NCBI RefSeq assembly: GCF_029531655.1
Contig: NZ_JANRMI010000005.1
Location: 186,001-250,000, forward strand
Source: Bdellovibrio svalbardensis
Lineage (GTDB): Bacteria > Bdellovibrionota > Bdellovibrionia > Bdellovibrionales > Bdellovibrionaceae
Length of the DNA stretch: 64,000 bases
Reading direction: 5' to 3'
Of this stretch, positions 27,924-31,675 are shown one piece after another. The stretch's first letter is position 1; the number at the start of each line of letters is the position of its first letter. Under the pieces are notes generated by a model. The model did not search any database, had not been told where the DNA came from, and was given only the letters and a program-made list of their open reading frames with translations. Position numbers and translations under genes: made by a program.

Positions 27924-30647
27924 TTACTTCTTAGCCTTGCGAGTGACTACTTTTTTGACACCCAAGGCTGCGGCTTTCTCTTTTGCCGTCTCCGCCTTTT
28001 TCAAAGTCTTCTTCGGAGCCGCCTTTGCTTCAGCTTTAGCAGCTTTTGGCGCCGCCTTCGCTTTGGCTTTTCCCTTAGCCTTGCCTTTTCCTTTGGCAGG
28101 TCCCTTCTCATTGATCAAGGCCACAGCCTGCTCAAGAGTGACAGTATCTGGCGTCGTACCTTCCGGCAAAGACGCATTCACCTTGCCGCTCTTAATGTAC
28201 GGACCGTAAGGACCGTTAAAGACTTGAATCATATCGCCAGAATCAGGATGTGCTCCTAAATCTTTCAAAGCAGCCGCTTTGCCGCGACCTTTTTTAGGTT
28301 GCGCAAGCATTTCGAGGGCGCGCTCATAAGTCATTGTGAAAATGCTTTCGCCCTTTGGAATCGAACGATAGTCGCCATCATGAACGATGAATGGACCGAA
28401 TCTGCCAAGACCTGCTTTGATCTCTTTGCCGGTACCAGGATGAGTCCCCAAAGTTTTTGGCAAAGCCAACAACTCCAAGGCCATTGGCAAATCCACTTGC
28501 TCTGGTTGAATCCCGGGAGGAAGTGACGCACGTTTTGGTTTGTCATTTTCCGGAGACACATCGCCCATTTGGACGTAAGGGCCATAACGACCACTCAAGA
28601 CATAAATAGGCTGATCCGTTGCAGGATCTTTCCCCAAGGCATCCGCTCCGTTGATCTTTTGATCGATCAACTTTTCCGCGATCTCAGGAGTGATATCCGC
28701 CGGAGATTCATTGTCAGGAACTGAAGCACTGAAGTCTTCACCATCACGAGTTGTCGTGAGGTATGCTCCATAGCGACCGACATGGAATTTGTATTTATCC
28801 ATGCCTTCCAGAGTCATCGTACGTGCTTCATCAGGATTGATTTTTTCTTCCTGAGAATCAACGCGAGCACGCAGACCTTTAGGGCCTTTGTAGACTGAAG
28901 CCAAGTAGCTCTCCCAGTCCAACTCCCCGTCTGCGATATTATCCAGGCTTTGCTCCATCTCTGAAGTGAAACCCAGATCGACGAACTCTGTCAGATAACT
29001 GCTTAATAATTTAGAAACGATCATCGCCGTAAACGTTGGAACAAGTGCTGTTCCATTTTTACGAACATAGCCGCGATCGATGATAGTACCGATAACAGAC
29101 GCGTAGGTGGACGGACGACCGATACCTTCTTTTTCCATCGTTTGCACGAGGCTGGCCTCTGTATAACGAGCAGGCGGCTTCGTTTCGTGCGATGTTGGAT
29201 CCAGCTTCGCGCATTTGATAGCATCTTTAACTTTAAGAGCTGGCAAACGCACTTCGCGTTCTGCCAAGTCTGCTTCCGGATCATCACTGCCTTCGACGTA
29301 AGCGCGCAAGAAACCCGGGAATTCGATCGTCATGCCCGAAGCAGAGAAGATCGCATCGCCAACTGAGATTTTTGCACTGACTTGTTTCTGACGAGCATCC
29401 ACCATTTGCGAAGCAATGGTGCGCTTCCAGATCAAATCATAAAGGCGGAACTGCGTTCCGGTAAGACCCGTCTCATCCGGATCCATAAAGTTATTACCCG
29501 CAGGACGGATCGCTTCATGGGCCTCTTGAGCACCTTTAACTTTTTTCGCGGCATAATTGCGCGGCTGAGGAGTCAGATACTCTTTGCCATATTTCGATTC
29601 AATACATTCGCGAGATGCCGTGATGGCTTCTGTTGAAAGGAAAGTTGAGTCCGTACGCATGTAGGTGATGAAACCTTGCTCGTACAATTTTTGTGCAACT
29701 TGCATCGTTTCACGAGCACTCAAGCCCAATTTACGATTCGATTCCTGTTGCAAACTTGAAGTGATGAAAGGTGCTGCTGGTTTTCTGAATGTCGGTTTTT
29801 CTTCCACATCCGAAACAACCCAAGTTCCTGTTTTCAAATCCTTGGAAAGATTCGCTGCATTCTTTTCGTCAAGAACAAGAACGTCTTTACCCGCAGTCAG
29901 CTGACCCGTTAGACCATCAAAGTCTTTACCGGTTGCTACTCTTTGATTTTTGTATTGCTGCAAACGAGATTCAAAGTTCACGCCGTCTTTTTGAAGTTCA
30001 GCAAGAACTCCCCAGTAAGCGGACTTTTTGAAACGCAGACGCTCTAATTCTCTGTCCACGATCAAACGAACGGCCACCGATTGGACACGACCGGCAGAAA
30101 GACCGTAAGCCACTTTCTTCCAAAGAAGTGGCGAGATCGTATAACCCACAAGTCTGTCCAACACTCGACGCGCCTCTTGAGCACGCACCAGATTATAATC
30201 AATCTCGCGAGTGTCTTTCAGAGCTTTTTGAATCGCGTCTTTGGTGATCTCATGGAACACCATTCGTTTCGTTGGAACTTTTGGTTTCAAAACTTCAAGC
30301 AAATGCCAGCTGATAGATTCCCCTTCGCGGTCTTCATCGGTTGCGAGATAGAGCTCTGAGGCATCGGCTAGTTTGTCTTTTAGATTTTTTACGACTTTGA
30401 GTTTGTCTTTGGGAATGCAGTAAAGAGGTTCGAAGTTGTGATCAACATTCACCCCCAACTGAGCCCACTTTTCTTTTTTTACCTTCTCAGGGATATCTTT
30501 TGCGGACTGTGGTAGGTCACGAATATGACCCATGCAGGATTCTACCACATAATCTCTTCCCAAGAATTTACGGATTGTCTTAGCCTTCGTAGGAGACTCC
30601 ACGATGACTAACTTGATTCCATCCGAGCTTTCAGTCTTTTTTGCCAT
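27924..30647 (-). CDS. topA: DNA topoisomerase I with glycine/aromatic C-terminal repeats and Lys/Ala tail
   Basis: A 907-residue type IA topoisomerase. The Toprim domain is at about 11-125 (VESPTKAKTI, DEDREGE at about 104-110), the active-site tyrosine is Y329 (GFITYMRTDS), and EAHEAIRPA follows. Instead of Cys4 zinc fingers, the C-terminal part has repeated G-[RP]-[YF]-G-P-[YF] modules (GRYGPYVQ, GRFGPFIV, GPYGPYIK), each with L-P-x-[GE] units, as in zinc-less TopA proteins. The last about 60 residues are Lys/Ala-rich (KGKGKAKGKAKAKAAPKAAK). It relaxes negative supercoils. The gene is preceded by the inverted-repeat element at 30787. Confidence 0.96.
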   Translation of the reverse strand: MAKKTESSDGIKLVIVESPTKAKTIRKFLGRDYVVESCMGHIRDLPQSAKDIPEKVKKEKWAQLGVNVDHNFEPLYCIPKDKLKVVKNLKDKLADASELYLATDEDREGESISWHLLEVLKPKVPTKRMVFHEITKDAIQKALKDTREIDYNLVRAQEARRVLDRLVGYTISPLLWKKVAYGLSAGRVQSVAVRLIVDRELERLRFKKSAYWGVLAELQKDGVNFESRLQQYKNQRVATGKDFDGLTGQLTAGKDVLVLDEKNAANLSKDLKTGTWVVSDVEEKPTFRKPAAPFITSSLQQESNRKLGLSARETMQVAQKLYEQGFITYMRTDSTFLSTEAITASRECIESKYGKEYLTPQPRNYAAKKVKGAQEAHEAIRPAGNNFMDPDETGLTGTQFRLYDLIWKRTIASQMVDARQKQVSAKISVGDAIFSASGMTIEFPGFLRAYVEGSDDPEADLAEREVRLPALKVKDAIKCAKLDPTSHETKPPARYTEASLVQTMEKEGIGRPSTYASVIGTIIDRGYVRKNGTALVPTFTAMIVSKLLSSYLTEFVDLGFTSEMEQSLDNIADGELDWESYLASVYKGPKGLRARVDSQEEKINPDEARTMTLEGMDKYKFHVGRYGAYLTTTRDGEDFSASVPDNESPADITPEIAEKLIDQKINGADALGKDPATDQPIYVLSGRYGPYVQMGDVSPENDKPKRASLPPGIQPEQVDLPMALELLALPKTLGTHPGTGKEIKAGLGRFGPFIVHDGDYRSIPKGESIFTMTYERALEMLAQPKKGRGKAAALKDLGAHPDSGDMIQVFNGPYGPYIKSGKVNASLPEGTTPDTVTLEQAVALINEKGPAKGKGKAKGKAKAKAAPKAAKAEAKAAPKKTLKKAETAKEKAAALGVKKVVTRKAKK

Positions 30648-30786
30648 GCTTGGTCCTTAGTCCAGGTTCAACCTGAACAAATCTGAGCGACTGCTGATGA
30701 TGTAGCAGGCCCATATATATAGACAAACCATGTCTTCGTTCGATTTAAGATGCAAGCCTCAATTTTGACAACTCGTATAAAGTCTT

Positions 30787-30900
30787 AAGGGTACCTGCTT
30801 CCCTTTGTGCGATTTTAGGTAAAAACTTTTGATGTAAGCACGCACTTTGTCTACTCCGACGAAGTCGGAATCCAAGTCAAACTGGGAAGCAGGTACCCTT
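30787..30900. repeat. 114-bp structured element with perfect 17-bp terminal inverted repeats
   Basis: The left arm (AAGGGTACCTGCTTCCC, 30787-30803) is exactly complementary to the right arm (30884-30900). An internal hairpin TCCGAC-GAA-GTCGGA lies at 30855-30869. The element lies between topA (minus) and the HAD phosphatase (plus), and its last two bases are the first two of the TTG start codon of the latter. It resembles a REP/MITE-like unit or a long-stem RNA leader; no second copy was seen in this window. Confidence 0.7.
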
Positions 30901-31675
30901 GAAGAACGTCTCTGAATTTTCGAACTCGCTTCGTTTTCTTTTAACAGATATCGATGACACTTTGACAGACGAAGGTCAGTTGGGGCCTGAAGCCTATGAG
31001 GCCCTGTGGAAACTTCATCAAGCTGGAGTTCACGTCATTCCCATCACCGGTCGCCCCGCGGGCTGGTGCGAGATGATCGCTCGTATGTGGCCAGTCAGTG
31101 GGGTTGTCGGCGAGAACGGCGGATTCTACTTCCGCTATCACAATAAAAAAATGCATCGCCATTTTTTCTTCGACGAAACAACTCAGCAGGAAAATCGTTC
31201 GAAACTGAAAGCCCTTGAAAGTGAAATTCTCACCAAAGTTCCCGGATGTGATTTGGCCAGCGATCAATTCTGCCGCCTTATGGATCTCGCCATCGACTTC
31301 TGCGAAGATGTCCCGGCATTGCCGCGCTCTGAAGTGCAGAAAATAGTCGACATCTTCAACTCCCATGGAGCGCAAGCAAAGGTCAGCTCTATTCACGTCA
31401 ATGGATGGTTCGGCAGCTACGACAAGCTCACTATGTCTTTGCGTTTCCTTGAAAGAGAATTCGACGTCAGCGCGGCCCAAGCGAAGGATGTCTGCGGTTT
31501 CAGCGGAGACTCTCCCAACGATGAACCCATGTTTGCGTACTTTCCCCACAGCTTTGCTGTCGCGAATATTATAAACTTTATTGATCAAATCAAAAACAAA
31601 CCCACTTATGTCACCACACATCGCGGCGGCTTAGGCTTCACAGAAATTGCCCAAGTTATACTCAAAGAAAAATAA
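30899..31675 (+). CDS. HAD-superfamily phosphatase (Cof/mannosyl-3-phosphoglycerate or sucrose phosphatase-like)
   Basis: The 258-residue protein starts with the HAD IIB pattern: LLTDIDDTLTDEG (motif I), VIPITGRPAGWC (motif II), lysine in DKLTMSLRFL (motif III) and FSGDSPNDEPMF (motif IV). The C2-type cap domain lies between motifs II and III. The start can only be TTG at 30899: there is no ATG or GTG before motif I. Its weak ribosome site (GGGAAG, 9-10 nt away) and the TTG are both in the right arm of the inverted repeat, so a folded transcript would hide them. The substrate is probably a sugar phosphate. A peroxiredoxin gene follows by 12 nt. Confidence 0.82.
   Translation: MKNVSEFSNSLRFLLTDIDDTLTDEGQLGPEAYEALWKLHQAGVHVIPITGRPAGWCEMIARMWPVSGVVGENGGFYFRYHNKKMHRHFFFDETTQQENRSKLKALESEILTKVPGCDLASDQFCRLMDLAIDFCEDVPALPRSEVQKIVDIFNSHGAQAKVSSIHVNGWFGSYDKLTMSLRFLEREFDVSAAQAKDVCGFSGDSPNDEPMFAYFPHSFAVANIINFIDQIKNKPTYVTTHRGGLGFTEIAQVILKEK

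Follow-up and report, generated by a model that had tools for sequence, protein, structure and literature searches.

REPs are palindromes with a GTAG or GTGG foot that are served by a family-specific RAYT and often occur as inverted doublets, termed REPINs or BIMEs (PMC3116915, PMC8266576, PMC6006769). In the related TIRYTs, or TIRtrons, the RAYT gene is bracketed by untagged inverted repeats, which are also found as moderately abundant dispersed copies (PMC3733652); most of the published TIRYTs belong to subclass 2.1 and possess a C-terminal HTH (PMC6006769). In the literature searched, outside which most subscription papers lie, we found no earlier description of RAYT-linked repeats in Bdellovibrio. 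Here we describe such a family in this predatory genus, with lineage-specific pairs of transposases and repeat arms, starting from an unusual copy that lies over the start codon of a gene.

This copy is an element of 114 bp in a stretch of 64,000 nucleotides from Bdellovibrio svalbardensis (hereafter the window, to which simple positions refer). It lies between the divergently oriented topA and a gene for a HAD-IIB family hydrolase, the latter being succeeded by a gene for a PrxQ-like peroxiredoxin. The features of the region are:

27924..30647, minus strand: topA, the divergently oriented neighbour
30765..30782, plus strand: end of the block that the orthologues share, TTGACAACTCGTATAAAG, close upstream of the element
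30783..30905, plus strand: predicted RNA stem of 21 bp (outer pairs added to the 17-bp arms, one bulge; from the RNA fold)
30787..30803, plus strand: left arm, an A-type repeat, AAGGGTACCTGCTTCCC (family core AGGTACCTGCTTCC)
30851..30879, plus strand: inner hairpin, a diverged copy of the B-type dispersed repeat (CTACTCCGACGAAGTCGGAGTG...)
30884..30900, minus strand: right arm, an inverted A-type repeat, GGGAAGCAGGTACCCTT, covering the first two bases (TT) of the TTG start and the sequence directly ahead of it
30899..31675, plus strand: HAD-IIB family hydrolase gene, with a TTG start

The preliminary description of this DNA had proposed perfect 17-bp terminal inverted repeats, and the two arms (30787-30803 and 30884-30900) are indeed complementary at 17 of 17 positions and 80 nt apart. 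Its inner 6-bp hairpin is likewise present, as TCCGAC-GAA-GTCGGA at 30855-30869, and both T's of the TTG start (30899-30901) fall inside the right arm as it had stated, the arm ending on the second base of that codon. Its further statement that the right arm holds the only possible ribosome site is a fair one, the nearest purine run being AAGCAGG, inside the arm. According to our own estimate, chance alone would produce a perfect inverted repeat of 17 bp, with both arms inside about 200 bp, roughly 1e-3 times per 64-kb window. Folded as RNA, the element has an MFE of -52.9 kcal/mol (z -6.1), and none of 200 shuffles proved equally stable. On the left, the similarity to the repeat runs on to about 30809 (CTTTGTG). 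Both arms carry the same departure from the common form, namely GGGTACC for AGGTACC, which would fit the spread of the doublet as one unit.

A search of the genome and its relatives for copies of the arms, which the preliminary description had called for, revealed a dispersed family. Allowing at most one mismatch, the core AGGTACCTGCTTCC has 17 matches in the B. svalbardensis genome (G000) as against 2 for a reversed-pattern control, and is present in 18 of the 24 genomes of the genus, with up to 27 matches per genome and 0-2 for the control reversed in either direction. The arms of B. svalbardensis form six inverted sets, the focal one included (contig:position):

C1:575946/576107: inverted arm pair
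C3:348289/348397: inverted arm pair
C3:472805 and 472875 (plus strand) with 473885 (minus strand): arm set bracketing a gene
C5:106481/106550: inverted arm pair
C5:216789/216885: focal inverted arm pair
C7:2989/3060: inverted arm pair

Three further single arms in this genome have a TTCT end, and the match at C2:842676 looks like chance. A longer pattern, AAGGTACCTGCTTMC, has matches in 26 of the 66 genomes of the family (genus included); outside the genus, more than a few matches were found only in two genomes, G030 (18) and G038 (14). The preliminary description had named a single, non-conserved copy as a refuting result; the arm family is multicopy instead, although the 114-bp whole occurs in the genome as just one exact copy.

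The gene bracketed by the third of these sets (G000:C3:473023-473661; locus L115) is intact and codes for a Y1 transposase of 213 aa, the Y1 match itself (C3:473119-473388) lying between the two plus-strand arms and the minus-strand arm. The protein matches Pfam Y1_Tnp above the cut-off and E. coli TnpArep 4er8 with E 5e-5, while its match to the NCBIfam model NF047646, 'REP-associated tyrosine transposase', has an E of 1.2e-17 and lies below the curated cut-off of that model. An HFH motif is retained, as is a Y..NP motif whose tyrosine is the putative catalytic residue. A Pfam scan at E 0.1 of three A-type RAYTs showed Y1_Tnp alone, with no HTH. Going by its gene context, L115 is the probable source of the transposase that would mobilise the A-type repeats in this genome.

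Across the genus, PF01797 gave 79 matches in 21 of 24 genomes, and 40 of these 79 RAYT loci were taken with their flanks for examination of the arms. Five of the 40 have an A-type arm on both sides in inverted orientation (L115 in B. svalbardensis, L119 in G003, L122 in G010, L124 in G020 and L127 in G022), two have a TTAC variant of the arm (L130 and L134), and another variant, GGTGCCTGCTTCT, stands on both sides of L120, L121, L126, L129 and L152 and on one side of L148. A blind scan for inverted repeats across each RAYT gene, run without a random control, found them in 31 of the 40. A tree of the RAYT proteins groups the arm types by lineage, with a single clade for four of the five A-type RAYTs and L127 placed next to it. 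A genus in which several RAYT lineages occur together with arms that match them offers a good setting for studying the co-evolution of transposases and their repeats. Beyond the genus, the RAYT of G030 is 57% identical to L115 and has arms on both sides, and the two RAYT loci examined in G038 have no arms. No RAYT with an A-type arm was found in the arm-rich G006 and G019, which we read as transposase loss or gaps in the draft assemblies. Other RAYT lineages have arm families of their own (GGTGCC..., GGTACGGAC..., GGTACGCCGTACC...; L113, L117, L118, L128, L137, L142-L146 and others), and a distant second Y1 clade of the genus is linked with GGGACCCTCGCCC repeats.

Set against the described systems, the A-type family comes close to the TIRYTs in that the RAYT on C3 is bracketed by inverted arms that are not of the GTAG type, and in that these flanking repeats are dispersed singly or as dimers (17 arms in this genome; 26 of 65 clusters from six genomes paired). 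It differs from them in that the A arms lack the GGGGWSAS motif, and in that the arm variants can be traced across several RAYT lineages of a single genus. With REPs, REPINs and BIMEs it shares short, mostly extragenic inverted doublets that form a hairpin, and a cognate RAYT with HUH and Y motifs that has the same repeat beside its gene and matches TnpArep 4er8. However, neither strand of the arm AAGGGTACCTGCTTCCCTTTG shows GT[AG]G beside the stem, the A-arm hairpins (that of the focal right arm among them) are weak with a 9-nt loop, and the copy number is low. The usual partner of a MITE is a DDE transposase, whereas the partner here is an HUH single-strand transposase, and no target-site duplication was seen at the one site that we compared. 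The likeness to RUP, NEMIS, ERIC and other MITEs (PMC3733652) lies in the length of 70-300 bp, the terminal inverted repeats, the lack of coding capacity, the location next to genes and the potential to form a hairpin when transcribed; an empty site, too, is available, though for the sister copy on C7 and not for the focal copy. On the strength of its sequence, the family would fit the description of TIRtrons and the architecture of REPINs, but not the GTAG foot of REPs. We regard the A-type repeats as a new family of RAYT/TIRYT-linked repeat doublets that is of an already known general type.

We posit, with a probability of about 0.87, that the element is a non-autonomous A-type doublet whose family is associated with an HUH single-strand transposase of the RAYT/TIRYT type and very probably owes its mobility to this enzyme. 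The REP/MITE-like mobile unit, which was one of two readings offered in the preliminary description, is thereby strongly supported, given the dispersed paired arms, the transposase bracketed by the same arms, the arm variants that track its lineages and the empty site of a sister copy. The points that count against it are a focal site without a clean empty counterpart, the NF047646 match below cut-off, the missing GTAG foot, the weak hairpin of the right arm and the situation in G006 and G019. As described for TnpAREP, the transposase would recognise the arm hairpins in single-stranded DNA, cut there and re-insert the doublet, which would have settled in the topA/HAD divergent region and come to form the HAD leader as far as the TTG, with the B-type hairpin as a second repeat nested in it; as a by-product, a read-through transcript would fold into the 21-bp stem, bury the start and lower translation.

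The copy on C7 gives the clearest view of presence and absence. It sits between two convergent genes, and the alignable flanks of this gene pair are separated by 28 bp in G013, as against 121 in B. svalbardensis, with the element absent; a comparison of the two genomes at this one site made no target-site duplication evident. The copy on C1 gives a less clean picture: its flanks have matches in the other genomes, which frequently lie away from one another, and the match in G003 spans the whole query. The focal site has no clean empty counterpart among the relatives compared, and the date and exact edges of the insertion are therefore unsure. The HAD leader of G013 matches 43 bp of the left part of the element at 72%, a score that 0 of 1000 shuffles reached; it has neither the right arm nor the B hairpin, and the left arm is missing its outer part. 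Since G013 has no arm with at most one mismatch anywhere in its genome, we read this match as a probable old and decayed insertion, the alternative being ancestral leader sequence. Arms are also found in the same HAD leader of G020, G022, G003, G006 and G010. A tree from HAD and the TopA N-terminus does not resolve the backbone of the genus, which keeps one origin for all of these compatible with the data; the insertions in the HAD leaders of B. svalbardensis and of these five genomes may go back to a single event or to more than one.

The inner hairpin belongs to a different family. At up to two mismatches the B repeat CTACTCCGACGAAGTCGGAGTG is found 59 times in B. svalbardensis, 30 times in G013, 18 in G009, 12 in G017 and a few times elsewhere (0 for the reversed control). 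A compensatory change of one stem pair is seen in 29 of the 72 listed variants with two changes, which argues that the B hairpin is itself maintained. None of the flanks of the 40 RAYT loci examined contains it, and it may be a REP-like family with a partner other than these RAYTs. Judged by these similarities, the focal element is an A-family doublet in which a diverged B-family copy is nested.

The usual location of the A-type repeats was surveyed in 65 arm clusters from six genomes (G000, G003, G006, G010, G020 and G022), with the RAYT loci left out; orthologous sites in G003, G006 and G010 were counted separately and are not independent, and the ORFs were called mechanically, which makes the distances to stops reliable and those to starts not. 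Sixty clusters lie outside the called ORFs (24 in co-directional, 22 in convergent and 14 in divergent regions), four lie inside and one was undetermined. As many as 33 of the 65 are within 10 bp of a neighbouring stop codon, 17 of them overlapping it, versus 1.5% for random positions and 9.3% for random extragenic ones at the same loci. This placement at stop codons amounts to a testable target rule, and the focal copy, which overlies a start in a divergent region, represents a minority placement. At L011, L013, L019, L032, L074, L092, L244 and other loci, the repeats are flush on the stop codon and often form a TAG stop. Pairs in B. svalbardensis enclose terminator-like hairpins between convergent genes. 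In G003 and G006 (L253 and L095), a 42-bp doublet is found inside an ORF of 354 codons, with the reading frame unbroken as called.

That the doublet was never one mobile unit, and that two independent singlet repeats or a repeat-mediated recombination came to stand inverted around a host leader, could be argued from the ordinary-looking terminator hairpins enclosed by other pairs of this genome directly between the stop codons of convergent genes, from the 39 of 65 clusters without an inverted pair and from the part of the interior that matches the G013 leader. We consider it quite unlikely, as the pairs point one way (26 clusters hold a plus followed by a minus arm, and none has only a minus followed by a plus), nine of the simple pairs, which span 42 to 175 bp, have the same span of exactly 42 bp, and G013 lacks the C7 doublet in its entirety. 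The one exact copy of the 114-bp whole might also bring to mind a chance inverted repeat, or a plain terminator or attenuator with no family behind it, but the probability of this is vanishingly small: the arm copy counts refute chance, the arms recurring as pairs, a terminator scan found none at the HAD leader and the inner hairpin itself is a 59-copy repeat.

The position over the start codon raises the matter of what the doublet does to the HAD gene. No in-frame ATG, GTG or TTG occurs between 30899 and the conserved DIDDT motif of the gene, and the MKN... starts of its orthologues align with the TTG, which supports 30899 as the start. Among the 23 HAD orthologues of the genus that were compared (that of G004, where the gene appears to be in two pieces, being left out), the start is TTG in B. 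svalbardensis, G013 and G023 and ATG in the other 20. Because the genes of G013 and G023 start with TTG without having intact arms, the codon was not brought in by the element and we reject its creation by the latter; the earlier proposal that the element supplied the start region holds for the bases just upstream, including any ribosome-binding site, which are now element sequence. We took the mean unpaired probability over positions -15 to +3, computed in windows from -120 to +40, as the predicted accessibility of the start; it amounts to 0.01 in B. svalbardensis and to 0.23-0.60 in the 22 orthologues. It is plausible from this model that the element over the start hampers translation of the HAD gene, with poor initiation being predicted if transcription begins upstream of the element. 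The focal copy provides a natural test of how expression responds when a mobile hairpin lies over a start codon.

The second reading of the preliminary description, a long-stem RNA leader that controls translation, is tenable as a possible side effect and falls short as a dedicated switch. For the latter, the stem would hide the ribosome site and the TTG until a temperature, RNase or ligand signal opens it and turns the phosphatase on, a scheme to which the very stable fold, the low accessibility in B. svalbardensis relative to its orthologues and the arms in the same leader of G020, G022, G003, G006 and G010 lend some appeal. Yet this structure lacks conservation among the 23 orthologous leaders compared within the genus: B. 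svalbardensis has an intact long stem, whereas the stem is mismatched in G022, half present or degenerate in G003, G006, G010 and G020 and absent elsewhere, which leaves a dedicated switch unsupported. Rfam gave only matches below threshold, arguing against a known RNA family, and the same arms are mostly located at the 3' ends of genes, so that their pairing needs no regulatory purpose. Hence, a dedicated cis-regulatory leader appears improbable. A crude consensus scan of the HAD leader found neither an intrinsic terminator nor a sigma-70 promoter, and both were rejected as candidates. A regulatory role is possible but secondary to the mobile-repeat reading. A combined scenario, in which the RAYT system homes to gene ends, a minority lands on starts and has been kept there, in front of the HAD gene, by more than one lineage of Bdellovibrio, and the doublet has become a brake on translation of the phosphatase, is tentative and on the whole rather unlikely.

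The topA/HAD divergent region also contains, from about 30700 to 30782, a block conserved throughout the genus (TATATATAGACAAA ... GCAAGTCT...TTGACAA), a possible shared promoter or operator. In G004 the two apparent pieces of the HAD gene (G004:C1:2875989-2876766) are in different frames, and the gene may be broken or affected by a sequencing error. Finally, many Achromobacter genomes encode relatives of the HAD protein at 55-57% identity, which are closer to it than those of some Bdellovibrionales, and this hints at a horizontal transfer.
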